64,000 bases of DNA from Myxococcales bacterium. GTDB taxonomy: Bacteria > Myxococcota > Myxococcia > Myxococcales > Anaeromyxobacteraceae. The position numbers were made by a program, and so were the translations under genes. Under the pieces are notes generated by a model that worked only from the letters and a program-made list of their open reading frames with translations, was not told where the DNA came from and did no database searches. Location of the stretch: contig JAJZQX010000007.1 of assembly GCA_021806645.1 (NCBI GenBank), positions 1-64,000 on the forward strand, read 5' to 3'. Shown here in pieces: positions 36,923-50,436 of the stretch. Numbering within the stretch: the first letter of the stretch is position 1; each line of letters begins with the position of its first letter.

Positions 36923-38292
36923 AGGCGCTCGCCCCCACGGCCGCCACGGCCCGCACCATCGCCTTCGACGTGCTCCTGCGCGTCGAGGCGGGGGGCGCCT
37001 ACGCCTCCCGCGCGCTCGACGCCGCCCTCTCCAAGGCCGGGGCGCTCCCGCCGCGCGACGCGGGCCTGGCCACCGCGCTGGTCTACGGAACGCTGCGCCG
37101 CGCGCTCCAGCTCGACGCCTGGCTGGCGCCGCACAGCTCGCGCCCCATCGGGCAGCTCGATCCGGCCGCGAGGGTGCTGCTCCGCATGGGCGCCTACCAG
37201 TTGCTGGTGATGGGGACGCCGCCCCACGCCGCGGTCGGCGAGACGGTGGAGCTGGCCAAGGGGGCCGAGCACGGCCGCGCCGCCGGCTTCGTCAACGCCG
37301 TGCTGCGGGCCCTGCTGCGGGCCGGGCCGCCGCCCGCGCCGCCGCCGTTCGCCGCCGATCCGGCCGGCCACATCGCCGTGGCCGAGGCGCTGCCGCGCTG
37401 GCTGGCGGAGGAGTGGGTGGCCTGGCTCGGGGCCGACGAGGCGCTGGCGCTGGCCGCGGCCATGAACGGGCCGGCGCCGCTCACCGTCCGCACGCCGCGC
37501 GCCGCCGAGCTGCTGGAGCGGGCGCGCGCCGCCGGGCTCGAGGCGCGCCCCTGCGCCGGCTCGCCGGACGGGCTCACGCTGGGCGGCGGGTCGGTGGCCG
37601 AGCTGACGCGCGCGGCGGCGGGCCTGCCGTTCCAGGTGCAGGACGAGGGGGCCCAGGCGGCCGTGCTGCTGGCGGCCGGCCACCTGCGCGGCCGGACCGC
37701 CCGTGTGCTCGACGCCTGCGCGGCGCCGGGCGGCAAGGCGTTCCACCTGGCCGAGTTGCTCGGCCCGGGCTCCGAGGTGGTGGCCGTCGAACTCCACCCG
37801 CGCAAGGCCGAGGCGCTCCGGCAGGAGGCGCGGCGCCGCGCCCTGCCGGTGACGGTGATCTGCGCCGACGCCTCGAAGCCGATCCCGGGGCTCGAACCGG
37901 CCAGCTTCGACGCGGTGCTGGTAGACGCCCCGTGCGCCGGGCTGGGGACCTTGCGGCGCCACCCGGAGCTGAAGCAGCGGCGGCTCGCCGAGGACCTGCC
38001 CCGGCTGGCGGCGCTGCAGCTCGCCATCCTCCGGGCCATGGCCCGCTACGCGAAGCCCGGGGCGCCGGTCACCTACGCCATCTGCTCGCTCTCACGAGCC
38101 GAGGGGCCCGGGGTGGTGGAGGCGCTGCTGGCCGAGGGGTGGCGGCGCGACGCGGCCCCGGCCGAGGTGGCGCGCGCCATGCTCGACCCGGCCGGCGACC
38201 TCCTCACCCTGCCGCACCGGCACGGGGCCGACGGCTTCTACGCCGCCCGGCTGGTCCGCGCCGTCCATCCGCCCCGACCCCGTCCGGCCTGA
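36919..38292 (+). CDS. rsmB: 16S rRNA (cytosine-967-C5)-methyltransferase RsmB
   Basis: A 457-aa protein starting at GTG inside the fmt stop. An N-terminal NusB-like helical domain (about 1-140) is followed by the SAM-dependent m5C methylase domain. Motif I is LDACAAPGGKAFHLAE, motif IV VDAPCAGLGTLRRHPE holds one catalytic Cys, and motif VI YAICSLSRAEG holds the nucleophilic Cys, where the more usual sequence is YSTCSL. It methylates C967 of 16S rRNA. Confidence 0.94.
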   Translation: MKALAPTAATARTIAFDVLLRVEAGGAYASRALDAALSKAGALPPRDAGLATALVYGTLRRALQLDAWLAPHSSRPIGQLDPAARVLLRMGAYQLLVMGTPPHAAVGETVELAKGAEHGRAAGFVNAVLRALLRAGPPPAPPPFAADPAGHIAVAEALPRWLAEEWVAWLGADEALALAAAMNGPAPLTVRTPRAAELLERARAAGLEARPCAGSPDGLTLGGGSVAELTRAAAGLPFQVQDEGAQAAVLLAAGHLRGRTARVLDACAAPGGKAFHLAELLGPGSEVVAVELHPRKAEALRQEARRRALPVTVICADASKPIPGLEPASFDAVLVDAPCAGLGTLRRHPELKQRRLAEDLPRLAALQLAILRAMARYAKPGAPVTYAICSLSRAEGPGVVEALLAEGWRRDAAPAEVARAMLDPAGDLLTLPHRHGADGFYAARLVRAVHPPRPRPA

Positions 38293-38341
38293 CCAGGAGT
38301 GGTCGTCCTGCGGAGCGGTCCATCGGCTACACTCCCCGGTC

Positions 38342-39016
38342 ATGGCGCTCCCCATCCGCATCGCCCCCTCCATCCTCTCCGCCGACTTCGGCCGGCTCGC
38401 CGACGAGGTGCGCGCCGTCGAGGCCGCCGGTGCCGACTGGATCCACCTCGACGTGATGGACGGCCGGTTCGTCCCCAACATCACCATCGGCCCGCTGGTG
38501 GTCGAGGCCGTCCGCAAGGTCACCAAGCTCCCCATCGACGCGCACCTCATGATCGTCGAGCCGGAGAGGTACGTGGAGGCCTTCGCCAAGGCGGGCGCCG
38601 ACCTGATCAGCGTCCACGCCGAGGTCTCGCCCCACCTGCACCGGACGCTGCAGGCCATCCGCGCCGCCGGCGCCAGGCCGGCCGTGGCGCTCAACCCCTC
38701 CACCGGCCTGGAGGCGATCGAGTACGTGCTCGGTGACTGCGAGCTGGTCCTCGTCATGACGGTCAACCCCGGGTTCGGCGGGCAGAGGTACATCGACGCC
38801 TGCACCGAGAAGGTGCGGCGGCTGCGCGCCATGGCCGACGCCCGCAAGCAGCCGCTCGAGCTGCAGGTGGACGGCGGGATCAAGCCCGAGACGATCGGGG
38901 CGGTCGCCGCCGCCGGCGCCAACGTCTTCGTGGCCGGCACCGCCGTCTTCGGCCAGCGCGACTACGGCCAGGCCATCGCCGCCCTGCGTGCGGCCGCGGG
39001 TCGCCACGCAGGGTGA
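38342..39016 (+). CDS. rpe: Ribulose-phosphate 3-epimerase
   Basis: A 224-aa protein, the usual length. It interconverts ribulose 5-phosphate and xylulose 5-phosphate in the pentose phosphate pathway. Signatures are IAPSILSADFGRLADEV, WIHLDVMDGRFVPNITIGP, DAHLMIVEPERY, VMTVNPGFGGQ and LQVDGGI, which hold the catalytic aspartates and metal-binding histidines. It starts 49 bp after rsmB. Confidence 0.97.
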   Translation: MALPIRIAPSILSADFGRLADEVRAVEAAGADWIHLDVMDGRFVPNITIGPLVVEAVRKVTKLPIDAHLMIVEPERYVEAFAKAGADLISVHAEVSPHLHRTLQAIRAAGARPAVALNPSTGLEAIEYVLGDCELVLVMTVNPGFGGQRYIDACTEKVRRLRAMADARKQPLELQVDGGIKPETIGAVAAAGANVFVAGTAVFGQRDYGQAIAALRAAAGRHAG

Positions 39017-39058
39017 CCCCCTCCTCCGCCATCGCCATCGCCGCCGGCGCCGTCCCGC

Positions 39059-39445
39059 CTATCGCAACCGCTCCACGCGGACCCGCGCCACGCCCCGCCC
39101 GATGATCCCGAGCGCCGCCGCGGCGGCCCGCGAGAGATCGATGACGCGCCCACGGACGAAGGGGCCTCGGTCGTTGACGGTCACCACCACGCTCCGCCCG
39201 CGCGCCAGCTCGGTGACGCGCACCCGGGTGCCGAATGGCAAGCTGCGGTGGGCGCAGGTGAAGGCGGCCGGATCGTAGGGCGCGCCGCTGGCGGTGGAGC
39301 GGCCCCGGAGCGAGTCGGCGTAGAAGCTGGCCAGCCCCTGCTCGGCGTCGCCGGTGGTGTCGGGCGTGCTCCCGCCGCCGTGGGGACCGGGCGCGCATCC
39401 GGCGGCGAGCGCCAGCGCGAGCGCCGCGGCCGGGAGGCGGCTCAT
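39059..39445 (-). CDS. RlpA-like double-psi beta-barrel lipoprotein
   Basis: A 128-aa protein. Start [17 protein letters not shown] gives a lipoprotein signal with lipobox LAAGC. The mature domain is a DPBB domain with [46 protein letters not shown] and [16 protein letters not shown], the classic RlpA core. RlpA of Pseudomonas is a lytic transglycosylase acting on peptide-free glycan. No SPOR domain is present. Its start overlaps the end of the UDG-like gene. Confidence 0.9.
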
Positions 39446-40077
39446 CGCGCCCCGCCGATGGCCCGCCGCACCTCGGGGTGCCGGCCGAGCAGCTGGAGGG
39501 CCTGGGCCAGCAGCGTTCGCCCCGGCTCCACCTTGAACCAGGTGGAGGCGCCCGAGGGGTGCGGGAGCGGGATCACCTCCACCGCGTGGCCGTGCCAGGT
39601 CACCTCGAAGGCCCGCCCGACCACCTCGGCCAGCGGCCGCGCGCCCAGCACCTCGCCGATGGCGAGCCGGCCGATGGGCACCACCAGGCGCGGCCTCAGG
39701 ATCTCCAGCTCGCCCACGATGAAGGGGCGCCAGCGCTCGATCTCCTCCGGCGTAGGCACGCGGTCCCCTCCCCCCTTGGCCTTGCCGGGGAAGCCGCGAG
39801 CCACCGCCGAGATGTAGAAGGCGTCGCGCACCGCGCCCTCGCCTGCCCCGGTGGCCTGCTCCAGCCAGCGGAAGAGCGTCTTGCCGGCGGTCCAGGCGAA
39901 GGGGCGGCCCAGCTTCGCCTCGTGCGGCCCGGGCGCCTGCCCGAGCAGGAAGACGCCGCTCACCACCGGCGGGGGGATCACGGCGGGGCCGAAGCCGCGC
40001 GGCCGGAAGGTCGCCAGCTTCCGGTGCAACGCCCGCAGCGCCGCCCCGGCCTCGCGCCGGCTCAGCGCTCCCTCCAT
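39442..40077 (-). CDS. Uracil-DNA glycosylase superfamily protein
   Basis: A 211-aa protein. The ATG at 40077 has the ribosome site aggag close upstream and overlaps the end of the DUF429 gene. Motif 1 [19 protein letters not shown] (about residue 42-60) and motif 3 LPHPSGAS (near the end) belong to the UDG family 4/5 pattern. No cysteine is present, so the 4Fe-4S cluster typical of families 4 and 5 is missing. It may be a divergent repair glycosylase or a mismatch-specific type. The activity cannot be set from sequence. Confidence 0.8.
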
Positions 40078-40997
40078 GGCTCCTCGCGGATCGAGTAGAT
40101 CCACCCCTCGCAGCGTGGCACGTCATGGGGCACGCCCTGGAAGCCGTCGGCCGCCGCCGCCGCCGCACCCACCGCCGACAGCAGCGCGGCCAGGTGGTCG
40201 CCGGTCCCGTCCTCGACGATGGGGGCCGCCTGCTCCATCTGGAACTCGACCCGGGCGGCGGTTCGCAGGGCGCGCAGCACCCTGGCCCGCTCCGAGCGGC
40301 GCGATCCGCCCGCTGCGTCGTCGCGGGTGTCGCAGCGGCCGCAGAGTTGCCTGGCGACGTGCGCCGGCCGCACCTCGGCGATGGTGGCGCCGCTGGCGCG
40401 CGGCGGCTCCCAGGGCACGAAGGCGGCGTCGAGCCTGGCCATCGCCACCAGCCCGAAGAAGGTGCGCCGGAGCGCGCGCGGCGCGGTGGGCGGCAGCGGC
40501 TCGCCGCGGTAGCAGTCGGTCACGCGGCGCTGGTCGCGCCCCAGCTCGGCGCGCAGCCGCGAGGCGGCACCGGTGAAGTCCCCGGTCTCGCCGAGGAATC
40601 GCTCCTCGAGGTGCTTGCCGAGCACGGCCGGGCCGCGCAGCGCCTGGCGCAGCAGGCCCAGCTGCCGCACGTGGGTCTCCGGCAGCGAGAGCGGGAAGTC
40701 GACGCCGACCACCAGCCGCCCCTCCGCCCAGCGGAGCTGCTCCTCGAGCCAGACGGAGAACCGGGCCCGCACGTCGCGCCGCCCGGGGGCGTCGCTGAAG
40801 GGGCGCCAGAGCCGGGCCAGCCTGATCCGCTCGCGATCGCACTCGATGCTGGCGGCGACGATCTTGTTGCCGGCCCCTTCCACGCCGCTCCAGGCCACCC
40901 CGATGAAGGTGCCGCGAGCCGGCAGCGCCAGCCTGGGCGGCTGCGCCCGGCCGAAGACCGCGCCGGCGGCGCCCCCTTGCTCCTGATCGTCGGCCAC
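40062..40997 (-). CDS. DUF429-like protein (RNase H-like fold)
   Basis: A 311-aa protein. [20 protein letters not shown] near residue 31-50 matches the first acidic/ribonuclease-H-like strand of DUF429-type proteins, and [12 protein letters not shown] (about 96-107) is the second with a conserved Asp. These features suggest a nuclease-like fold, but function is unknown in the family. It overlaps the UDG-like gene and probably shares its transcript, followed by the RlpA-like gene. Confidence 0.7.
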
Positions 40998-41005
40998 GCT
41001 CGCGT

Positions 41006-41635
41006 TTACTTCCCACCCGGGGGGGTGTCAACGGCCGCCCCGAATGGTCGGACCGCCCGGCGGCGCAAGCGGGCCAGGAGCAGCGCCGCCACCACCACCG
41101 CGAAGACGGTCGGCTTGAGCCGGTCGGCCTTCACCCGCCAGAGGAAGTGGACCACGCCTAGCAGCGCGGCGGGGTAGGCCAGCCGGTGCAGCGCCTTCCA
41201 GCGGGCGAAGCCGAGCCGGCGCACCCAGCCGTCGGTCGAGGTGACGGCCAGCGGCAGGAGCAGCAGCAGCGCCGTGAAGCCGACGGTGATGAAGGGGCGC
41301 TTCACCACGTCGGCCCCCACCGCCTGCAGGTCGAAGAACTGGTCCACGCCCAGGTACCAGCTGAAGTGGAGCGCCGCGTAGGAGAAGGCGGTGACGCCGA
41401 GGAGCCGCCGCAGCCTGAGCGGCCAGGCGAGCCCGGTCCAGAGCCGGAGCGGGGTCGGCGCCAGCGACAGGACGAGGAACGTGAAGGTCCAGAAACCGAG
41501 CCGGTTGAGCACCGCCTCGATGGGGTTGGCGCCGAGCCGGTGCCGGGCCGCGTCGGCCAGCAGGAGCGCGAGCGGCGCCAGGGCGGCGCCCCACCCCGCC
41601 GCCTTCACCAGCCGCCGCCGGGCCGCGCCGTCCAC
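41006..41635 (-). CDS. msrQ: Haem-binding membrane subunit of the methionine sulfoxide reductase system
   Basis: A 209-aa membrane protein with six predicted helices. MsrQ passes electrons from the respiratory quinone pool to periplasmic MsrP. Conserved histidines of the ferric-reductase-like fold lie in YAALHFSWYLGVDQFF, ARWKALHRLAYPAALLG and GVVHFLWRVKADRL. No good ATG is available; the GTG at 41635 sits just after the msrP stop and gives VDGAARRRLVKAAG. The pair order msrP-msrQ is normal. Confidence 0.9.
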   Translation of the reverse strand: MDGAARRRLVKAAGWGAALAPLALLLADAARHRLGANPIEAVLNRLGFWTFTFLVLSLAPTPLRLWTGLAWPLRLRRLLGVTAFSYAALHFSWYLGVDQFFDLQAVGADVVKRPFITVGFTALLLLLPLAVTSTDGWVRRLGFARWKALHRLAYPAALLGVVHFLWRVKADRLKPTVFAVVVAALLLARLRRRAVRPFGAAVDTPPGGK

Positions 41636-41637
41636 GG

Positions 41638-42576
41638 TCAGTACAGTGCCTTCGGGTCGAGGCCGGCGTAGAGCGAGGCCACCTCGGTGTAGCCGTTGAA
41701 GGGGAGGGTCTTGCGCTTGAGGAACTCGCCGATGCGCCGCTCCCGCGCCTGGCTCCAGCGCGGGTGGTCCACCTCGGGATTGACGTTGCCGTGGAAGCCG
41801 TACTCCCGCGGCGCCAGCCGGTTCCAGCTGGTGGGCGGCTGCCGCTCGGTGAGCGTGATCCGGACGATCGACTTGACCCCCTTGAAGCCGTACTTCCACG
41901 GCACCACCAGCCGGAGCGGCGCCCCGTTCTGCCCCGGCAGGACTCGCCCGTAGAGTCCGACCGCCAGCAGCGTGAGCGGGTGGCTGGCCTCGTCGATGCG
42001 CAGCCCCTCGACGTAGGGCCACTCGAGCACGGCGCGCCGCTGGCCGGGAAGCTGGGCCGGATCATGGAGCGTCTGGAAGGCCACGAACTTCGCGCGCGAG
42101 GTCGGCTCGACCTGCCGGAGCAGGTCGCCGAGCGGAAAGCCGACCCAGGGGATCACCATCGACCAGGCCTCGACGCAGCGCATCCGGTAGGTCCGCTCCT
42201 CGAGCGGGAAGCGCTTCCAGAGCGCGTCCACGTCGAGGGTGAGCGGCCTCTTCACCTCGCCGTCGATGGTCACGGTCCAGGGGCGCGGGCGGAGCGTGCC
42301 GGCGCGCACGGCCGGATCCGACTTGTCGGTCCCCAGCTCGTAGAAGTTGTTGTAGCTGGTGACGTCGTCCCACGGCGTGAGGGCTTCGCCGCCGGCCAGC
42401 GTCACCCGCTTCGCCACCGGCAGCGGCACGCCGACCGGCCCGCCCGCCGCCGATCGACCGGGCCAGGCCAGGGAGAGCGCCCCGGCGGCCCCGAGCCGGA
42501 GGAAGTCGCGCCGCCTGAGCCAGAGGCTCTCGGGCGTCGCCTCGGCCTCCTTCATGTCCGGTCGCCAGCGCGCCAT
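41638..42576 (-). CDS. msrP: Periplasmic methionine sulfoxide reductase, molybdopterin subunit
   Basis: A 312-aa protein of the sulfite-oxidase-like family. MsrP reduces protein methionine sulfoxide in the periplasm. A twin-arginine signal [12 protein letters not shown] lies at residue 21-32. The molybdenum-ligating cysteine is C134 in [13 protein letters not shown]. The stretch EHPLTL-like [14 protein letters not shown] and [13 protein letters not shown] near the end are also typical. The upstream gap contains an IS91-family remnant, so the promoter must lie in about 42577-42640. Confidence 0.94.
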
Positions 42577-42629
42577 GGTTCGCCTCCCTGGTGGGAGGAT
42601 CCTAATGGGCGGGCGTCCCGGGCGCCGCT

Positions 42630-42999
42630 CACGCCCGGGTCCGGATCCACGAGAACGATCACGAGGGCTTGGAGCAGTTGTGCAGGTACACCGTCAGGCG
42701 CTCTTGCCCTCGTACAACCGCCGGAGCCGCCCGCTCCCGACCGGCTCGCTCCGCGCTACCGGGTGCCCTGGGCCGAACTGTTGCGGAAGGTCTTCTCCCT
42801 CGACGTGCTCGTCCGCCCACGGTGCGGGGGCGGCATGCGGCTGGTCGCCTTCATCGCCGAGGCCAGCGTGGCGAAGCGCATCCTAGACCGCCTCGGGCTG
42901 GTCTCCACCAGGCCACCCGTGGCGAAGCATGGAGCGCCCGACGGGGCGTTAGACCCCGGCCCGGAGTACGACGACGCTGGCCCCAGCTACGACGAGTGA
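42630..42999 (+). pseudogene. IS91/ISCR-family transposase remnant
   Basis: Two pieces of a Y2-type transposase joined with an internal deletion. The first, [18 protein letters not shown], is in one frame (to about 42710); the second, WAELLRKVFSLDVLVRPRCG followed by GGMRLVAFIAEASVAKRILD, is in the next frame and ends at 42999. These are the LCRY region and C-terminal zinc-finger region of IS91-family transposases. About 100 residues between them and the whole N-terminal catalytic part are missing. Confidence 0.8.
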
Positions 43000-43280
43000 C
43001 GGCGGGCCGCTCTGGGGGCGGCCAGGGGAGCAGCCTGCCCTCACGTGGCCGGCGGGCCCGAGAGTGCACCGTGCGGACCGTCCGTGCGGCGTGGCAATGT
43101 CCTTGGGCGGCTGACTGACACGAGCCTTGAACCTTTGGACTCGAGTCACCGTAAGACTTTGTCGGATCTGAACGGTGGGTTGAAGCGCTTCCCTCGTCCC
43201 GCGAGGCGATCGCTCGATGTAGACTGCCTGTGATAGCGTCGAGGCCCTCAGTCGCACCAGCCTACCGTGGGAGAACTGAC
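43000..43280. other. Non-coding stretch beside the IS91 remnant
   Basis: No gene is seen. It probably contains what is left of the right end of the IS91-like element, then a lower-GC stretch (43115-43225) that may hold the promoter of the short lipoprotein gene. No confident -35/-10 pair was found. Confidence 0.35.
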
Positions 43281-43619
43281 ATGAATCGACTGCTTGTCGC
43301 TCTGGCGCTGCTGTCGGGTTGCACTGGCGTTTCGGCTCGCGCTGAGAAGATTCGGCAGTTCAAGGGCCAGACCGAGATGCCCGGGTGTGAATTCCTCGCT
43401 ACCATGACCGGCACCTCGGGGTGGGGTGGCAGCGCCGGGAATTCGATGGGGATCAACAACGCTAGGAACGAGGTCCTCGACCGGGCCGCTGGAATGGACG
43501 CGACCCATGTTGTATGGCTCGAAGGCAACGCGTCGTGGGCAACTACGGTGACAGGTGAAGCATGGAAGTGCCCAACAACAAGAGCCACCCAGCCAACCGG
43601 CGCGCCGAACAAGCACTAG
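43281..43619 (+). CDS. Short DUF4156-like lipoprotein
   Basis: A 112-aa protein. The ATG has gggagaactgac upstream and begins MNRLLVALALLSGC, a signal with lipobox LLSGC. The mature part (CEFLATMTGTSGW, NARNEVLDRAAGMDATHVVW) resembles the small DUF4156/RcsF-like outer-membrane lipoproteins in its C..(A)R..L...AA..GA(T/N)HVV pattern. It lies in the lower-GC island between the IS91 remnant and the three-gene cassette. Confidence 0.6.
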   Translation: MNRLLVALALLSGCTGVSARAEKIRQFKGQTEMPGCEFLATMTGTSGWGGSAGNSMGINNARNEVLDRAAGMDATHVVWLEGNASWATTVTGEAWKCPTTRATQPTGAPNKH

Positions 43620-43802
43620 CCGCAGGCAACGTCCCTCCAGACCTCCACCGCACCCCGTCTCGCGCCAGAGCCTAGACGAGCGAGTGACCCCCTATTGCCA
43701 AACTCACCGCGAGGGCGGTGGTCTCCTTCCGGCGCGAGAGCCGGGGCGGGAAACAGCAAGCCCCGTTGCTGCCTCTACTCTCAGCCGGAAGGGAGAAGCG
43801 AC

Positions 43803-43895
43803 ATGAACTGGCGACGACCGGAAGTGTGGGCGGTGGCGGCGGTGATGCTGAAGGCGTTGATCGACGCCGCCACGATTCTGTTCAAGAAGGAGTAG
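43803..43895 (+). CDS. 30-residue membrane microprotein
   Basis: A short ORF, MNWRRPEVWAVAAVMLKALI plus DAATILFKKE. A strong purine site (gaagggagaagcgac) lies just before the ATG. The sequence is a basic N-terminus, one hydrophobic helix and a lysine-rich end, typical of small single-span membrane proteins or some type I toxins. A GC hairpin follows ten bases after the stop. No homologue recognised. Confidence 0.4.
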   Translation: MNWRRPEVWAVAAVMLKALIDAATILFKKE

Positions 43896-43904
43896 GCCGT
43901 TTGC

Positions 43905-43935
43905 CCGGGGGTGGCAATCCGTCGCCCGCCCCCGG
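43905..43935 (+). terminator. Hairpin after the microprotein ORF
   Basis: A 10-bp stem, ccgggggtgg with ccgcccccgg (one G-T wobble), and a 11-base loop lie ten bases after the stop at 43895. Only a short T-run (ctttc) follows a few bases later. Likely a terminator, though weak by T-run. Confidence 0.45.
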
Positions 43936-44049
43936 CCACCTTTCGGAGCGACCGAGCCAAGTTGTCGGTCTCGAAGCGGCACTTTGTCGGGGCTCCCAAG
44001 TACGCTGTCTGACTAGCCTATTACGCATCGCCAACTTTTGGCTTGTGTT

Positions 44050-44064
44050 TTGGAGTAACTCCAA
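44050..44064. promoter_or_regulatory. Palindromic operator and possible promoter of the three-gene cassette
   Basis: The sequence ttggag-taa-ctccaa is a perfect 6-3-6 inverted repeat 17 bases before the GTG of the first cassette gene. It overlaps AT-rich bases that could be a -10 region (caatat at 44062), with a weak -35 candidate ttggct at 44038. MqsA binds a palindrome of the same layout (arms around a 3-base spacer), so autoregulation by the second gene is plausible. This is inference. Confidence 0.55.
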
Positions 44065-44081
44065 TATATCAAGGAGACGCG

Positions 44082-44483
44082 GTGCCGAGGTTCGAACTGG
44101 CGGTCGTCCATGAGGCGGCTTCAGGTGGGCGGGTGGAGGCGGGTGGGCCCCGGTATCGCGAGCGCTTGCTGCCGTTGCTTGGCGAGTTCACGAACATGCA
44201 TGCCTTCGCGTGCGCTGTACTCCTCGAGCTGAAAGCCAATGACTTCATCGACACGGAGCGGTACCCCAATCGTCCAGAGATGGACGCCTACGGCGTGGCG
44301 ATCTCGCAAGATTTACAGGAACGCTTTGGCATCGAGGGCTTCGTGACCTGGTACGTCAAGTTCACGATGGACACCGACGACGACGGACACCCGGTGTTGA
44401 TGGCTTCGCTTCACGGCGCCGAGTACCCGCTGAAGCGAATCGGAGGAACCTTGCCCGTGGAGTTCAGCAGGAGGGAAACATGA
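44082..44483 (+). CDS. Unknown 133-aa protein, first gene of three-gene cassette
   Basis: The GTG at 44082 has aaggagacgc directly upstream. The protein is acidic and mostly mixed alpha/beta (LPLLGEFTNMHAFACAVLLE, then VTWYVKFTMDTDDDGHPVLM). No signal or membrane helix. I recognise no family. Its stop overlaps the ATG of an MqsA-like regulator by four bases, the usual place of a toxin in the mqsRA arrangement, but it does not look like MqsR. GC content and codon choice (for example ttta, cca and aaa codons) are lower-GC than in the flanking chromosome. Confidence 0.65.
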   Translation: MPRFELAVVHEAASGGRVEAGGPRYRERLLPLLGEFTNMHAFACAVLLELKANDFIDTERYPNRPEMDAYGVAISQDLQERFGIEGFVTWYVKFTMDTDDDGHPVLMASLHGAEYPLKRIGGTLPVEFSRRET

Positions 44484-44977
44484 GCAGACTCTGCGCCGAA
44501 TGCGGCGCCCGAGCTGTGGAGCCGTGCGCCGTCCCTGGCCGCACCTCGGCCTACAAGCACTTCGCCTCACTACCGATCCCGGCGACCCTTCCCATCCCGA
44601 CCTGCGCGAACTGCGGGACCGAATGGTTCGACCGGAAGACCTCTGAGCGACTCGACGCGGCTCTGGCCGAGGCGGCCGCCCAGCAGCTCTCTGGCCTCGC
44701 CGGCGAGGCGCTCGGGGTTCTGTCGACCTCGCTGAACCAGCGCGATCTCGAGGCACTGCTTGGTCTGTCCGCGGGCTACCTGTCCAAGGTTCGGCATGCG
44801 AAGGAGCGGCCGAGTGCGCCCCTTGTCGGCCTGCTGGCCCTGCTGGCGGACCGGCCAGCGCGACTCGACGAAATCGCCCGGATCTGGGACACGGGTCATC
44901 TCCCGCCAAGGCTCACGGTGGACAACGTTTCCCTTTTCGAAAGCAGCGTGGATGGTCCCGCTGCCGTGGCCTACTGA
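44480..44977 (+). CDS. MqsA-like zinc-ribbon and HTH regulator
   Basis: A 165-aa protein. The N-terminus has a CXXC pair at C5/C8 (CAEC) and another at C42/C45 (CANC), a zinc-binding ribbon. A helical linker follows, then an XRE-type helix-turn-helix at about 84-130 (LNQRDLEALLGLSAGYLSKV, then RPSAPLVGLLALL). MqsA antitoxins have the same order: zinc domain, linker, HTH. It is longer than E. coli MqsA (131 aa). It overlaps both neighbours, and probably binds the palindrome at 44050-44064. Confidence 0.75.
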   Translation: MSRLCAECGARAVEPCAVPGRTSAYKHFASLPIPATLPIPTCANCGTEWFDRKTSERLDAALAEAAAQQLSGLAGEALGVLSTSLNQRDLEALLGLSAGYLSKVRHAKERPSAPLVGLLALLADRPARLDEIARIWDTGHLPPRLTVDNVSLFESSVDGPAAVAY

Positions 44978-45453
44978 TGGCATTCCGAATCGTCGCGACG
45001 CTCCTTGCTGAGGGCGTGTCGCTGGACCAATACACGGGTCGTCTCACCGCGTTCAACATGCTGGAAGCTGTGCTCGCACCGTCCTTCCCTGCGATTCTCG
45101 GGAAGCTCGTGGTGGTCAACGTCTACGAGATCGATGATGGTCGTGAGCCGTGCTGGGAGCGGGTCACCGTGCTCGATGCCGAGGGCATGGCGCTCGCCGA
45201 GGTCAAGGCGGAACTGACCGGCGAGGGGGAGGCGCATCGTTCCATGGTCCTGTTCCAGGGGATCAAGCTGGCGAAGCCCGGGATCTGCAACGTCGTCGTG
45301 GAGCAGGCGCGTCGTTCAGACGGGCCTTGGCAAGTTGTAGCGCGCCGCCGCCTCCACGCGCAGATGCGCCCCCACCCGCTGTCCCGCCCGGACGAGAAGA
45401 ACCCTGAAGCCGGGAAGATTACCGAACCGGCCGCCACCAGCTCGAGGTCATGA
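44977..45453 (+). CDS. DUF6941-like protein, third gene of cassette
   Basis: A 158-aa protein whose ATG shares one base with the MqsA-like stop. The N-terminal pattern LLAEGVSLDQYTGRLTAFNM and APSFPAILGKLVVVNVYE resembles DUF6941 proteins, which are beta-sandwich-like and of unknown function (family named from memory). The middle segment VVVEQARRSDGPWQVVARRR is a likely beta hairpin. The C-terminal 25 residues are polar and may be disordered. The next sequence is a RAYT transposase fragment, so this is the end of the cassette. Confidence 0.65.
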   Translation: MAFRIVATLLAEGVSLDQYTGRLTAFNMLEAVLAPSFPAILGKLVVVNVYEIDDGREPCWERVTVLDAEGMALAEVKAELTGEGEAHRSMVLFQGIKLAKPGICNVVVEQARRSDGPWQVVARRRLHAQMRPHPLSRPDEKNPEAGKITEPAATSSRS

Positions 45454-45575
45454 GGTACGGCGATCTGAACCCGGTCCGCGCCGGCCTGGTGCGCTCTTCC
45501 GCGCGATGGACCTGGTCGAGCCTCCGTCACTACGCCTACGGCGAGACCGACGAGTTCATCCTCGATGCCACCTGA
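45430..45575 (+). pseudogene. C-terminal fragment of a REP-associated (RAYT) transposase
   Basis: The reading frame HQLEVMRYGDLNPVRAGLVR, continuing WTWSSLRHYAYGE and ending at 45575, matches the C-terminal part of TnpA-REP/IS200-like tyrosine transposases (usual form YIHLNPVRAGLV and WPWSSYRAY). The catalytic HUH and Tyr region is absent. It overlaps the end of the DUF6941-like gene in another frame. Confidence 0.8.
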
Positions 45576-45684
45576 TAGTCCCAAGGGGTGGGCCTAGTTG
45601 GGTCCTCATGATGATTGCGTCACCCAAGCTCACCCGGTCGGGTCACGATTGGTAAGCGTTCTTCCACGGCAGCAGGAGGCAGGC

Positions 45685-46539
45685 ATGGCGCAGGTCTTCG
45701 GGCGGCAGCACGTCGGCGCGATCTTCCTGGCAGCGCTCACCATCTGGTCCGGCCCGGCGGTGGCCGCGCCGGGCGACGCTGGCATTCCCACGGCCGAGCT
45801 CGCCCCGCACTACAAGGGCGGAAAGGAGGGACACGCCTACACCCGGGCGATGCTCGAGCTGGGCATGCGCACCGGAGCGGCCACCACGGCCGCGCTCCGC
45901 AACGATCCGGAACGCATCAAGGTGGCGCTGCGAAGCCTCCGCGAGCAGATGGTCAAGGTCGGGGCGATGGTGCCATCCTGGAGGCCCTACTTCCGGACCA
46001 ACCTCATCGACGAGCTCGAAAGTGCCGTGACCGCCAAGGCCGACATGGCCACCCGGCGCAAGATCGTGAGCCGGTTCGAGAACTCCTGCACGAACTGCCA
46101 CGCCCGCTTCATGTTCCAGGTCCAGGCGCAGTACCGCTGGGGCAGCTTCGCCACGGCCGTGGTCCAGGTCGGAGGCAAGGAGTTGACCTTCCACCAACTC
46201 ATGCTGGACCTCGCCAGCAGCCTGGGCGCGGTGCGAGGGGACGTGGAGTCCGGGCAGCTCACCGACGCCCGGGCCGCCTACCAGCGGCTGATGGACCACT
46301 TCTCGATGATGGAGCAGCTCTGCGCCAACTGCCACGACCAGCCGCGCCAGTACTTCATCGACTCCAGCGTCAAGGCCCACCTGTACAAGATGGGCGGACT
46401 GCTCCGCCGGGGTGAGAAGCAGGTCTCCGAGTACACGCCGCTCTTCAACGACGTCAACGAGATGAGCTGCATGCCCTGCCACCAGGTGCACATGCCGGCC
46501 GCCTTCCTGCAGCGCAACGCGCTGGAGGGGAAGCCGTAG
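45685..46539 (+). CDS. Tri-haem periplasmic c-type cytochrome
   Basis: A 284-aa protein. The ATG has aggaggcaggc upstream. A signal peptide is cleaved near residue 28 (GPAVAA). Three haem-binding motifs are present: CTNCH (135-139), CANCH (213-217) and CMPCH (262-266). The helical regions between them (for example RVALRSLREQMVK-like stretches) resemble cytochrome c'-type bundles. It probably carries electrons in the periplasm; partner unknown. The next gene, dctP-like, is convergent. Confidence 0.85.
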   Translation: MAQVFGRQHVGAIFLAALTIWSGPAVAAPGDAGIPTAELAPHYKGGKEGHAYTRAMLELGMRTGAATTAALRNDPERIKVALRSLREQMVKVGAMVPSWRPYFRTNLIDELESAVTAKADMATRRKIVSRFENSCTNCHARFMFQVQAQYRWGSFATAVVQVGGKELTFHQLMLDLASSLGAVRGDVESGQLTDARAAYQRLMDHFSMMEQLCANCHDQPRQYFIDSSVKAHLYKMGGLLRRGEKQVSEYTPLFNDVNEMSCMPCHQVHMPAAFLQRNALEGKP

Positions 46540-46569
46540 TCCGGCCGACCCGAATCGCCGAGCTCGAGC

Positions 46570-47562
46570 TTACTTCTTCTTGCCGGAGCGGCACTGGTCG
46601 CGCGCCACCTTGACCTCGTCGAAGAAGGCGGCCGGCACCACGCCGCCGCGCACCACCGGGTAGCTCCGCTCCATCGCCTCGCGCCACGGCCTCGGGTCGA
46701 CGCTCACCACCCGCAGTCCCTGCTTCTTCATGGCGGTCACGGCGTCCACGTTGAGCTTGCGCACCTCGGCGTCCACCTTCAGCCCCAGCTCCACCGCGAT
46801 GGCCTGCAGCCTGGTCCGGACCTCGGGGGCGATCCGCTCCCAGGCGTCCTTGCGGACGATGGTGGCGCCGTAGATGTAGCCCCACGGCAGGTCGATCATG
46901 GCGTCGGCCTTCTCGAAGAGCCGGGTGGTGAGGATGTAGAGCGGCACGTTGGTGATGCAGTCGATCATGCCGGTCTGGAGCGACGGCACCACGTCGGTGG
47001 AGGAGAGCACCACCGGGCTGAAGCCGGCGGCGAGCCAGGCGTCGACGCTCTTGGGGTCACCTTCCCAGGCGAAGACCTTGGCCTTGGCGGCGGCCATCTC
47101 GGCCGGCGTCCGGTAGGGCTTGTCGCAGAACATCGACATGGCGCCGATGCGGCTCCACTGCAGCACCACGTAGTTCTTGGCCTCGAAGGCCGCCTCGATC
47201 TTGCTCCGGACCCTGGCGAAGGTGCACTCCACCTCCTTCTCGTCGGTGAAGAACATGGGCAGCGAGAGCATCTGCGGCTCGGGCAGGATGTCGTGCATGC
47301 CGATGTTGGAGATGGAGGCGGCCTGCAGCTGGCCGATCCCCATCTTGCGGACCATGTCCCCTTCGCTCCCCTGCGTGCCGCCGGCGTAGACCTTGAGCTT
47401 CACCTGGCCGCCGGAGGCCTGCTCCCAGCGCTGCCCCAGCTCCTTCAGGATCTCGTGCCAGGTGGAGCCGGCCGGCGCCAGCGTCCCCAGCTTGATGGTG
47501 ACCTGAGCCTGGGCGGTGGAAGCGACGAGGGCGGCGAGCGCGGCGACGGCGAGCTTCTTCAC
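46570..47562 (-). CDS. TRAP transporter substrate-binding protein, DctP type
   Basis: A 330-aa protein with a signal peptide (MKKLAVAALAALVASTAQAQ). It carries the DctP family features VTIKLGTLAPAGSTWHEILK at the mature N-terminus and the organic-anion-binding region LSSTDVVPSLQTGMIDCITN. TRAP binding proteins capture dicarboxylates or related organic acids and pass them to the membrane subunits. It lies 43 bp after the TatT gene. Ligand unknown. Confidence 0.92.
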   Translation of the reverse strand: MKKLAVAALAALVASTAQAQVTIKLGTLAPAGSTWHEILKELGQRWEQASGGQVKLKVYAGGTQGSEGDMVRKMGIGQLQAASISNIGMHDILPEPQMLSLPMFFTDEKEVECTFARVRSKIEAAFEAKNYVVLQWSRIGAMSMFCDKPYRTPAEMAAAKAKVFAWEGDPKSVDAWLAAGFSPVVLSSTDVVPSLQTGMIDCITNVPLYILTTRLFEKADAMIDLPWGYIYGATIVRKDAWERIAPEVRTRLQAIAVELGLKVDAEVRKLNVDAVTAMKKQGLRVVSVDPRPWREAMERSYPVVRGGVVPAAFFDEVKVARDQCRSGKKK

Positions 47563-47581
47563 TGGCTTCTCCTTGGATGCG

Positions 47582-47605
47582 GTGACGAGGTGACGAAGTG
47601 ACGAG
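47582..47605. repeat. Three copies of an 8-bp direct repeat
   Basis: The unit gtgacgag, with one base changed in the middle copy, is repeated three times in the short gap between the TatT stop and the dctP start. It could come from slippage. No function is evident. Confidence 0.6.
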
Positions 47606-48511
47606 CTAGAGGAACAGGTCGTCGGCGTGGTCGAGCAGCAGCCGGGCGCGGCGCTGGGCCAGCGTGTTGGCGAGGCGGAAGTGCGGCGCGGCGTCGACGT
47701 CGGCCTTCAGCACCTCCTCGAGGAGGGCGGTGAAGCCGGCCCGGTCCTGCGCCTGCACCAGCAGCCCCTCGGCCAGCGCCACTCGCGGCCCGAGCTTCTG
47801 CTGGTGGGAGAGCTGCAGCGCCCGGTCGTAGTGAGCCCGGACCCTGGCCGCTCCGCCCCCCTCGCGCTCGGTGCGGGTGGCGTCGTAGGCGACGAAGAAC
47901 TCGTGGATCGAGCCCTCGCCCCATGACTCGTCGAGCGCCAGCGACCGCTCCATCATCGCCACCGGAGCGGGGAGCTCGGCCACCAGCCCGAGGTCGGACT
48001 TGGCGTTGACGATGGCCAGCGTCCAGGCCGAGGCGGTCCAGTAGAGGACCGGGACGTCCTCCTTGCTGGCCCTGGCCAGCACACCGGCCAGGTCCCTCAG
48101 CGCCTTGAGCCTGGCCCCCATCCCGTCGCGCCGCTCGTCGAGCGCCCGCAGCCCGTAGCCACGCGCCCGCAGGAAGAGCCGTCTCGCCCGGGCCCGCTGC
48201 TGCCTGGCCTCGGCCAGCCGCCCGGCGAAATCGGCGGCGTCGGCGTCGGCCGCCACGAACGCATAGGCGTACTGGGTGAAGCCGCTGCAGAGCGCCAGGA
48301 GCAGCGACTCGTTCCCCGGATCGGAGGCGAGGACCGACTCCATGGTCTTCAGCCCGAACGGGACCGCGTCGCGGACCAGCTCCGGATCGTCGTCGGAGGC
48401 GTAGGTGTCGCCCCCCGAGGTGAGCGCGTTGGCGGCCACCCTGGCGGCGAGCCCGGAACAGCCCGACGCGGTGACAATGAGGGCGGCGGCGAGGACGGTG
48501 AAGCGGTGCAT
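47606..48511 (-). CDS. TRAP transporter TatT (T-component) lipoprotein
   Basis: A 301-aa protein with a lipoprotein signal (MHRFTVLAAALIVTASGC; lipobox with Cys at about residue 18). The mature part is helical and TPR-like, with family features such as YWTASAWTLAIVNAKSD and HEFFVAYDATR. TatT proteins form trimers that dock the DctP-like binding protein in Treponema-type TRAP systems. Here it immediately precedes dctP. The start codon is inside a short divergent region shared with dctQM. Confidence 0.88.
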   Translation of the reverse strand: MHRFTVLAAALIVTASGCSGLAARVAANALTSGGDTYASDDDPELVRDAVPFGLKTMESVLASDPGNESLLLALCSGFTQYAYAFVAADADAADFAGRLAEARQQRARARRLFLRARGYGLRALDERRDGMGARLKALRDLAGVLARASKEDVPVLYWTASAWTLAIVNAKSDLGLVAELPAPVAMMERSLALDESWGEGSIHEFFVAYDATRTEREGGGAARVRAHYDRALQLSHQQKLGPRVALAEGLLVQAQDRAGFTALLEEVLKADVDAAPHFRLANTLAQRRARLLLDHADDLFL

Positions 48512-48550
48512 CGGGCTTCTCCCCCGGGGAGTTCGTGGTACTCATAGGCT

Positions 48551-48565
48551 CCCCGCCGGGCGGGG
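48551..48565. promoter_or_regulatory. Inverted repeat in the divergent TRAP control region
   Basis: Between the TatT and dctQM starts (59 bp) the sequence ccccgcc-g-ggcgggg forms an inverted repeat, and a second one, ctcccc-c-ggggag, lies at 48519-48531. These may be operator sites controlling both directions; GC richness makes chance pairing likely too. Confidence 0.3.
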
Positions 48566-48570
48566 GTCAA

Positions 48571-50436
48571 ATGCAACCTCCCGTGACCACCGAGATCCCT
48601 CCCGACCACGTCTCCGCCAAGCCCGGCACCCGCCTCGAGCGCGGGCTGGTCACCGTGCTGCTGCTCGCGATGATCGCCCTGCCGGCCGCCTCCGCGCTGG
48701 CCCGCCGCTTCCTCGGGCGCGATCTCCCCGGCGCCTCGGTGCTGGCCCAGCACATCACGCTCTGGGTCGGCTTCATCGGCGCGCTGCTGGCCACTGCCTC
48801 GGAGCGCCACCTCGGCCTCTCCACGCTGGGGATGCTGCCCGACGGCCCGCCGCGCCGGGCCCTCCACGCCTTCGGCCAGATCGCCAGCGCCGCCGCCTGC
48901 GCCCTGCTGGTCTGGGCCTCGCTGAGGCTGGTCGAGGTGGAGTGGGGCAGCGAGGGCGAGGTGGCCTTCGGCATCCCGGTGGCCTGGAGCCAGCTGGTGA
49001 TGCCGGTCGGCTTCGCCGTCATGGCGCTGCGCTTCGCCTGGATGGCCGGCGCCTGCCCGCTCAAGCGCGGCCTCTGGTGCTGGGTGCCGCGCGCGCTGGC
49101 GCTCGCCGCCATCCCGGCCGTCTTCCTGCTCGGGCGGGCCACGCCCACTCCGGCGCTGGTGACGGTGCTGCTGCTGGTGACGCTGGCGGCCTTCCTGGTC
49201 GGCGCGCCGGTCTTCGTGGCCATGAGCGGCGTGGCCATGGCCCTCTTCTTCCGCGACGGCGGCGCCTCGGCCATCGCGGCCGTCCCCACCGCCACCTTCA
49301 ACCTGGTCTCCTCCTCCACCCTGCCCGCCATCCCGCTGCTCACCGTGGCTGGCTACGTGCTGGCCGAGGCCGGCGCGGCGCGGCGGCTGGTGCGCGCCTA
49401 CAAGGGGATGTTCGGCTGGATGCCGGGCGGCGTGGCGGTGATGGCCACCATGGTCTGCGCCGTCTTCACCACCTTCACCGGGGCGTCCGGCGTGACCATC
49501 CTGGCGGTGGGTGGCCTGCTGCTGCCGGCGCTGATCGAGGACAGGTACCCCGAGGGCTTCTCGCTCGGCCTGGTGACCGCCTCCGGCTCGCTGGGGCTGC
49601 TCTTCCCCCCTTCACTTCCCGTCATCCTCTACGCGGTGGTGGCCGGCGCCGCCATCGACCAGCTCTTCATCGGCGGCCTGCTCCCCGGCCTCCTCATGAT
49701 CCTGCTGGTGGCCGGCTACGGCGTCTGGACGGGGGTCCGCGCCGGCGCGCCGCACCAGCCCTTCGAGCCGCGCGAGGCCTGGCGCGCGCTGTGGGCCGCC
49801 AAGTGGGACCTGGGCCTGCCGCTGCTGGTGGTGGTGTCGGTCGGTGGCGGCTACGCCACGGTGGTGGAGGCCTCGGCGCTGGCGGCCGCCTACTCGATCC
49901 TGGTCGAGCTGGTGATCTTCCGCGAGATCAAGCCGTTTCGCGACCTGCCCGGCGTCCTCTCCAGCGCCGCCACCCTGGTCGGCTCGGTGGTGCTGCTGCT
50001 CGGCACCGCGCTCGGCGTGACCAGCTGGTTCGTGGACGCCGAGATCCCGACCCGGCTGGTGGAGTGGATGACCACCCACGTGCAGAGCCCGGCCCTCTTC
50101 CTGCTCATGCTCAACGCCGTGCTGCTGGTGCTGGGCAGCGTGCTGGAGATCTACTCGGCCATCGTGGTGCTGGCGCCGCTGGTGGCGCCGCTGGGGCGCG
50201 CCTACGGCATCGAGCCCATCCACCTGGGCGTGGTCTTCCTCGCCAACCTGGAGCTGGGGTTCCTCTTCCCGCCCATGGGGCTCAACCTCTTCCTCTCGGC
50301 GCAGCGCTTCCACAAGCCGCTGCCCCAGGTCTACCGGAACGCCTTCCCCTTCCTGCTCATCATGACGGCCGGCGTGCTGGCCATCACCTACCTGCCCATC
50401 CTCACCACCGGCGTGGTCCAGCTCTTCGCCAGGTAG
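48571..50436 (+). CDS. TRAP transporter permease, fused DctQ-DctM
   Basis: A 621-aa membrane protein. The first ~190 residues form a four-helix DctQ-like small subunit (GASVLAQHITLWVGFIGALL is typical), fused to the DctM large permease with about 12 helices. The latter has family motifs GVTILAVGGLLLPALIEDRY, GLLFPPSLPVILYAVVAGAA and ELGFLFPPMGLNLF. It moves substrate using a Na+ or H+ gradient, with substrate delivered by the DctP protein encoded divergently. Confidence 0.93.
   Translation: MQPPVTTEIPPDHVSAKPGTRLERGLVTVLLLAMIALPAASALARRFLGRDLPGASVLAQHITLWVGFIGALLATASERHLGLSTLGMLPDGPPRRALHAFGQIASAAACALLVWASLRLVEVEWGSEGEVAFGIPVAWSQLVMPVGFAVMALRFAWMAGACPLKRGLWCWVPRALALAAIPAVFLLGRATPTPALVTVLLLVTLAAFLVGAPVFVAMSGVAMALFFRDGGASAIAAVPTATFNLVSSSTLPAIPLLTVAGYVLAEAGAARRLVRAYKGMFGWMPGGVAVMATMVCAVFTTFTGASGVTILAVGGLLLPALIEDRYPEGFSLGLVTASGSLGLLFPPSLPVILYAVVAGAAIDQLFIGGLLPGLLMILLVAGYGVWTGVRAGAPHQPFEPREAWRALWAAKWDLGLPLLVVVSVGGGYATVVEASALAAAYSILVELVIFREIKPFRDLPGVLSSAATLVGSVVLLLGTALGVTSWFVDAEIPTRLVEWMTTHVQSPALFLLMLNAVLLVLGSVLEIYSAIVVLAPLVAPLGRAYGIEPIHLGVVFLANLELGFLFPPMGLNLFLSAQRFHKPLPQVYRNAFPFLLIMTAGVLAITYLPILTTGVVQLFAR

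Follow-up and report, generated by a model that had tools for sequence, protein, structure and literature searches.

We analysed a window of 64,000 nucleotides from a Myxococcales bacterium of the family Anaeromyxobacteraceae (positions 1 to 64,000, forward strand, of contig JAJZQX010000007.1 in the NCBI GenBank assembly GCA_021806645.1), in which three overlapping genes on the forward strand make up a compact cassette with a toxin-antitoxin-like organization. A preliminary description of this DNA, made from the sequence alone, had delineated three genes of 133, 165 and 158 amino acids (aa) that overlap by 4 and 1 bases, and these coordinates were confirmed. Gene 1 (44082-44483, +; 133 aa), whose GTG start is preceded by an AAGGAG site, codes for a predicted divergent MqsR-type toxin; gene 2 (44480-44977, +; 165 aa), which overlaps gene 1 by 4 bases, codes for an MqsA-like antitoxin and putative repressor; and gene 3 (44977-45453, +; 158 aa), which overlaps gene 2 by 1 base, codes for a DUF6941-like protein in the slot that a chaperone occupies in toxin-antitoxin-chaperone (TAC) systems. 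The gene order, with overlapping genes, is kept at three separate loci, and the relative L063 displays the identical 4- and 1-base overlaps. The ratio of nonsynonymous to synonymous divergence lies between 0.22 and 0.47 for genes 1, 2 and 3 (three comparisons each, with synonymous sites near saturation), and all three look to be under purifying selection.

The toxin-antitoxin pair and its predicted operator

Gene 1 belongs to no family in Pfam or NCBIfam, and an initial scan of the genome contigs with it recovered no relative. A profile search of 195 Myxococcota genomes with the 13 nearer rows (profile A1; E <= 0.001) gave 17 matches in 15 genomes, the window included; two weaker candidates (L013 and L015, E 0.005 and 0.007) were left out, as the profile did not recover them and no adjoining MqsA-like gene was found, even though the place of L015 (as L029) reached E 9e-5 to gene 1 within a small sequence set. 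The preliminary description held that the first gene does not resemble MqsR, which proved wrong in that its predicted fold is that of MqsR and weak matches to the Pfam MqsR_toxin model (PF15723) are seen in its distant relatives. Neither gene 1 nor any of the 13 A1 rows matches PF15723, and all four distant relatives (L058-L061) do so over nearly the whole model (E 5e-5 to 2e-3), with scores of 19.1-24.0 bits that lie under the cut-off of 26.2. When the A1 rows were compared as a profile with the PDB, the E. coli MqsR structure 3hi2 was recovered in register at E 0.21, second behind a designed protein (E 0.15), a match that is weak when taken alone. An AlphaFold2 (AF2) model of gene 1, computed from the window sequence together with L062 (Myxococcales bacterium UBA5297) and L063 (isolate WY1.bin30), has a mean predicted local distance difference test score (pLDDT) of 75.6 and a predicted template modelling score (pTM) of 0.73. 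Foldseek places two MqsR chains of 3hi2 on top for this model (E 2.2e-4 and 2.5e-4; next match 0.11), and VIA-align superposes it on 3hi2_B with Z 11.4 and a root mean square deviation of 2.1 over 91 residues, the next entry having Z 4.8. On the strength of this model we assign gene 1 to MqsR as a divergent version outside the membership of the Pfam model; that it is a toxin without MqsR kinship is ruled out by the fold match to 3hi2 and the PF15723 matches of its relatives.

Eight residues of gene 1 (Leu6, Leu50, Asp68, Tyr70, Trp90, Lys93, Ser109 and His111) are invariant in the 14 A3 rows, and Tyr91 is present in 13 of them. Among the residues of E. coli MqsR, both Tyr81 and Lys56 are indispensable (PMC9636575). 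The catalytic sites were placed by aligning gene 1 with the canonical Myxococcota MqsRs L073 and L074: Tyr91 falls at the position of Tyr81 and the invariant His111 at that of Lys96, with the Lys56 position, to which we return below, not being conserved. From this arrangement we infer that His111 may have taken over the acid-base work.

The product of gene 2 has the MqsA plan noted in the preliminary description, namely two CXXC pairs, a linker and a helix-turn-helix (HTH) domain, and it matches TIGR03830 (E 2.4e-9) and PF15731 (E 2.4e-5), in both cases under the curated cut-offs. An MqsA-like gene lies directly 3' of gene 1 or its relative in 17 of 17 loci (the window, 12 others and the four distant ones), with a gap between toxin and antitoxin genes of -7 to +21 bases where measured. 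Genes 1 and 2 almost certainly constitute a toxin-antitoxin pair of the MqsRA type.

Upstream of the pair, 17 bases 5' of the start codon of gene 1, lies the palindrome TTGGAGTAACTCCAA (44050-44064, not assigned to a strand) with perfect 7-base arms, which occurs at no more than one mismatch in none of 100 shuffles of the window and, at the same tolerance, is unique in its own 4.14 Mb genome. The two nearest relatives have TGGAGTARCTCCA as their upstream palindrome, and most of the other loci have variants of TTGGACTNAGTCCAA or TTGAACTNAGTTCAA. By eye, such a palindrome can be discerned in 16 of the 17 loci, L060 being without one. Scored by arm pairing in 60-base upstream stretches, which in many rows begin at a trimmed residue and not at the start codon, 14 of 17 loci pair at six or more of the seven positions (5.8% for shuffles) and eight at all seven (0.3%). 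At five loci (L018, L026, L027, L058 and L059) a hexamer (TTGACT or TTGACA) directly precedes the palindrome, a placement that recalls a promoter spacer. The binding site of E. coli MqsA, AACCT-N3-AGGTT (PMC4894380), has the same palindromic plan with other letters than the TTGGAGT-A-ACTCCAA of the window, and the latter is likely to be the autorepression site of gene 2.

The third gene, its slot and the antitoxin tail

The slot behind the antitoxin is filled in sister loci too, which lends support to the tripartite nature that the preliminary description had considered. At six loci (L019-L024) it holds a gene of 150-164 aa with a 4-base overlap with the antitoxin stop. The alignment of these six whole proteins (A7), compared with all PDB sequences, gave one match up to E 10, namely Rv1957 (5mtw_C, E 1.8e-11), the TAC chaperone of the Mycobacterium tuberculosis HigBA1-SecB system (Rv1955-Rv1957), whose toxin and antitoxin are of other families and whose chaperone is unlike gene 3. 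Taken singly, two of the six match Pfam SecB weakly (E 0.029 and 0.13) and none matches an NCBIfam model. At a seventh locus (L026, on G141:C122) the third gene runs into the end of the contig. Its first part is recognised by A7 (E 0.0039) and agrees in 121 of 129 bases with L115, a SecB-like gene that this genome carries on a different contig (G141:C749; E 4.6e-37 to A7) and that may be a near-identical second copy or a strain variant. Thus, a SecB-like third gene is seen in seven of the 17 loci (six whole, one truncated) and a DUF6941-like one in three (the window, L016 and L017), and neither was seen in L018, L025, L027 or the four distant loci L058-L061 (of which L061, with 238 bases visible past the antitoxin, is counted as having no third gene seen). 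In the co-occurrence check proposed for the trio, which spanned the 195 Myxococcota genomes, all three genes of the window type were found together at three loci; at 10 of the 17, the pair is accompanied by a third gene of one kind or the other. As SecB-like third genes stand in seven of these loci and the profile of the six whole ones has Rv1957 as its PDB relative, we conclude that the clade holds MqsRAC/TAC modules. No match to A7 at E <= 0.001 was found in the genome of the window or in G009. Further A7 matches (L117-L120) adjoin pairs that by eye resemble HigB-HigA, for which reason there are probably two kinds of SecB-type TAC in Myxococcota.

The presence of a third gene goes hand in hand with the character of the antitoxin C-terminus. 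In the window, gene 2 continues for 29 residues past its last conserved tryptophan (Trp136; coding part 44888-44974, +), with a fraction of large hydrophobic residues of 0.31 and a net charge of -3. All 10 antitoxins accompanied by a third gene have comparable tails (29-74 residues, large hydrophobics 0.20-0.31, net charge -4 to +3), irrespective of whether that gene is SecB-like or DUF6941-like. Among the antitoxins for which no third gene was seen, those of L018, L025 and L027 have basic tails (+4 to +10; hydrophobics 0.05-0.12), and those of the four distant loci have tails of only 3-20 residues. TAC antitoxins are described as bearing a C-terminal chaperone-addiction (ChAD) stretch (PMC5105189), and in HigA1 a Val-Ala degron for ClpX lies within this stretch (PMC8165232); by analogy, we propose that the gene 2 tail is a ChAD-like stretch. 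Six of the seven SecB-type antitoxins end in AA, versus seven of 155 background frames (a greedy set of open frames of at least 200 aa, which are not curated genes).

The history of the cassette was approached with a tree of gene 1 and the core of gene 2 from the 17 loci, rooted on the four distant ones. The three DUF6941 loci cluster on a single branch (support 99/99) inside a 13-row group that holds every SecB-type locus and is itself weakly supported (79/91), with nine of 14 inner branches left open. L025, for which no third gene was seen, groups with the SecB-type loci L024 and L026 (100/100), and this grouping suggests that there the third gene was lost and the tail decayed together. An exchange of the SecB-like for the DUF6941-like gene fits the tree best, if short of proof.

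The resemblance of gene 3 to DUF6941 (PF22091), pointed out in the preliminary description, is upheld by a score of 25.9 bits, just under the cut-off of 27, and two relatives exceed the cut-off, the closest one, in G009, with 29.3 and a copy on contig C28 of the window's own genome with 31.9; that of G025 scores 26.9, which rises to 27.3 when the frame includes its neighbours. The PF22091 family at large is present in at least 39 of the 195 genomes; unlike gene 3, most of its matches listed in Myxococcota span approximately positions 22-124, another part of the profile, and are not situated beside MqsRA. The AF2 model of gene 3, built from four sequences (pLDDT 68.2, pTM 0.66), is all-beta with seven strands and lacks SecB-like helices. 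Its structural matches in the PDB include many immunoglobulin (Ig)-like sandwiches, GH2 domains (Z up to 12.6), Wzt, RhoGDI and PDE-delta; we read the last four kinds of match as reflecting a generic Ig-like sandwich and draw no conclusion on function from them. A profile of gene 3 found nothing significant in the PDB (best E 0.44). Gene 3 is probably an Ig-fold protein, as judged by its model. That it is a diverged SecB is ruled out by a comparison of the DUF6941 subgroup (profile A4) with A7, to which hhalign gives a probability of 0.09%, together with the all-beta model; SecB is also absent among the 50 structural matches listed for gene 3, which by itself shows nothing.

The A4 profile recovers five subgroup copies in four of the 195 genomes, and all five are third genes of small cassettes, three behind MqsRA and two behind another pair (weak gene 3 matches in G044, G062, G064 and G073, which the profile did not recover, were left out). 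A 10-residue pattern of gene 3, searched in the genome contigs, recovered three loci, taken as G025, G009 and G137. The G137 cassette (L055, also L064; isolate VK_bin-1538) has a pair of 198 and 117 aa with gaps of 13 and 3 bases. The window's own genome carries a cassette of this second kind (L056 8094-9565, that is, G000:C28:66094-67565) with genes of 206, 127 and 156 aa, of which the first two overlap by 4 bases and the third, the DUF6941 relative, adjoins. Profile searches of Pfam, NCBIfam and the PDB with this pair yielded nothing significant, and it belongs to no known family; the 117 aa and 127 aa proteins both end in AA, the latter in ALAA. The first two genes of L056 are possibly a new toxin-antitoxin pair. 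A decayed copy of the second cassette (L072, on G002:C4) has a stop inside its first gene and no third gene in view; it adjoins a gene that by eye resembles a nucleotidyltransferase of the AbiEii kind.

Comparison with known systems and the reading of the module

The TACs described in the available text of PMC5105189, PMC8165232, PMC9519451 and PMC11618068 all have SecB-like chaperones. Among them, the MqsRA system of Vibrio cholerae RC385 acts as a TAC and requires such a chaperone (PMC5105189), and in MqsRAC of E. coli C496_10, which affords protection against T2, the toxicity of MqsR is relieved only by MqsA together with the SecB-like MqsC (PMC9519451). By family and layout, and not by direct sequence comparison, the cassette resembles MqsRAC in its MqsR-type toxin, its MqsA-type antitoxin with a C-terminal extension and its third gene directly downstream, and the sister loci of its clade extend this likeness to a SecB-like third gene; in contrast, the third gene of the window is DUF6941-like, predicted to be all-beta and devoid of profile similarity to the SecB-like group. 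With E. coli MqsR/MqsA it shares the toxin fold, the order of toxin and antitoxin, the CXXC pairs and the HTH, to which it adds the antitoxin tail and the third gene. CmdTAC has the same toxin-antitoxin-chaperone layout and an antitoxin ending in LAA, comparable to the AA ends of the SecB-type sister antitoxins, but its toxin is an ADP-ribosyltransferase and its CmdC is SecB-like (PMC11618068), whereas the window antitoxin has no AA end. Given that gene 3 is not SecB-like, the window is not a strict TAC, and we class it with MqsRA as a divergent system whose layout is TAC-like and whose third protein is a different one. The earlier suggestion of an undescribed toxin-antitoxin module stands as to toxin-antitoxin and falls as to the pair, which is recognisable as a divergent MqsR with an MqsA in the layout of the known MqsRAC/TAC systems. 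A literature search, outside of which most subscription journals lay, found no paper naming DUF6941, no toxin-antitoxin-chaperone paper mentioning Myxococcota and no tripartite toxin-antitoxin system with an immunoglobulin-like chaperone, and the term "non-SecB" was absent from the seven papers examined for it; together, these negatives are weak evidence of novelty. As far as the searches show, the undescribed element is a DUF6941-like protein standing where a SecB-like chaperone would be.

Our reading, to which we give a probability of about 0.55, is that of an autoregulated, TAC-like MqsR-MqsA operon in which the SecB-like gene has been replaced by one for a DUF6941-like, probably Ig-fold protein. 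The computations that support it are the family assignments of genes 1 and 2, the operon with its operator, the exchange of the third gene and the correlation of tail and third gene. Gene 3 is very probably a functional part of the module; that it stands in for SecB by chaperoning or stabilising the antitoxin is a role that we favour by a little. Under such a scheme, the gene 2 product would bind the palindrome to repress the operon and would neutralise gene 1, and its hydrophobic C-terminal tail would render it unstable unless bound by gene 3. Titration of gene 3 by misfolded protein, or by a phage protein as in CmdTAC, might then leave the antitoxin open to degradation, whereupon the MqsR-type toxin would halt translation as an RNase. 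Given that E. coli is shielded from T2 by MqsRAC (PMC9519451), a novel third component may bring a novel trigger with it.

Several findings weigh against this reading. By alignment, the position of E. coli Lys56 varies among the relatives and is occupied by Asp in the window. None of the three DUF6941-type antitoxins has the AA end (the window ends in AVAY, L016 in AVAG and L017 in YGY), and seven of the 17 pairs are without either third gene. Only three DUF6941-type loci are known, all on one branch, and the direction of the exchange, with SecB lost and DUF6941 gained, depends on the weakly supported tree. Confidence in the gene 3 model is moderate, with residues 15-41 under a pLDDT of 50. 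Finally, DUF6941 in general is for the most part found apart from toxin-antitoxin genes: the MqsR/MqsA profiles match at just three of the 31 DUF6941 loci L078-L108, all three already known.

If the pair were an ordinary two-part MqsRA, gene 3 could be a sensor or effector for a response, for instance to phage, that is dispensable for neutralisation. Such a division has a precedent in PD-lambda-2, whose third component is needed for defence and not for toxin neutralisation (PMC9519451), and it would agree with the DUF6941 gene found beside an MqsA-like gene and near a BrxC gene at L104 (see below), as well as with a lower-ranked structure match of gene 3 to the Ig-like AGS-C domain of a Pycsar cyclase (9ard, rank 43), albeit that the fold is generic. 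Since gene 3 occupies the slot of the SecB-like TAC chaperone of the sister loci, and the antitoxin keeps its hydrophobic tail, we hold this to be unlikely. The constant order with overlapping genes at three separate loci, the apparent purifying selection on gene 3 similar to that on genes 1 and 2, and the occurrence of all five subgroup copies as third genes likewise make it quite improbable that gene 3 is a mere passenger, taking no part in the module, of an MqsRA pair that lost its chaperone, as might be surmised from the weakly supported transposase debris directly 3' of gene 3 and the location of most of the wider DUF6941 family elsewhere. The gene 3 kind also stands behind two unrelated pairs and therefore need not act via the MqsA tail; it could bind the toxin itself as a second antitoxin, or might alter the toxin's cleavage target. 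As both the tail of gene 2 and the precedent of SecB (PMC5105189) suggest the antitoxin as the partner, we see very little room for this option.

Returning to the replacement of SecB, we tentatively consider, at somewhat short of even odds, that the members of the DUF6941 subgroup chaperone or stabilise antitoxins as a dedicated class of their own, independent of SecB, and that this class took over from SecB in one MqsRAC branch and, in a separate event, joined an unrelated two-gene cassette (approximately 200 and 120 aa, the latter protein ending in AA). If this were true, one genome would have two different toxin-antitoxin-like pairs sharing one new third part. The unrelated protein that the window has in the slot of its close relatives' chaperone suggests that the helper part of such systems is swappable. 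Further, a natural replacement by an unrelated fold in the same slot, with the tail kept, would show chaperone addiction to be general and not peculiar to SecB.

Other occurrences and genomic surroundings

A further DUF6941 gene (26.8 of the 27 bits of the cut-off) was observed at L104 (1-3297, on G193:C812) behind an MqsA-like zinc/HTH gene, which hhalign recognises at E 1.5e-7 and TIGR03830 at E 0.013, and which the A2 profile missed at E <= 1. Downstream are a DUF4258 gene, accompanied by an HTH gene, and then the start of a BrxC gene, so that by its gene content the locus looks like a defence island. The gene in the toxin position found no support in comparison with MqsR, and the DUF6941 gene has no direct profile support for kinship with the window subgroup; for the latter reason, and because the A2 profile missed the MqsA-like gene, the link to the window is weak.

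PADLOC returned only weak hits for the three genes of the window and none for gene 1, and PHROGs likewise only weak hits (best for gene 1 E 0.38, not significant). Plasmid, phage and viral collections held nothing informative for genes 1 and 3 and some of their relatives, nor did the plasmid collection for one antitoxin relative.

The lower G+C content ascribed to the cassette is real, at 59-68% versus 71-78% at 38,000-42,750, but the zone extends past the cassette, from approximately 43,000 to 47,500. Of the transposase remnants reported on both sides, the right-hand one (45432-45571) retains a weak match to a REP-associated (repetitive extragenic palindromic) tyrosine transposase (E 0.0015; 18.5 bits versus a cut-off of 80), whereas the left-hand one has no Pfam match in its own frame. 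The right-hand frame begins within the last codons of gene 3, the very end of which may consequently be an insertion junction; this end is of low confidence in the AF2 model. At 43281-43619 lies a gene for a small protein with a lipoprotein-like start and a weak DUF4156 match (E 2.1e-4). Left of the cassette is what we take, by eye, to be an MsrP/MsrQ-like pair (41006-42576, -), and right of it presumably a set for a tripartite ATP-independent periplasmic (TRAP) transporter with DctP-like and fused DctQM-like components (46570-50436), both of which are apparently chromosomal neighbours.

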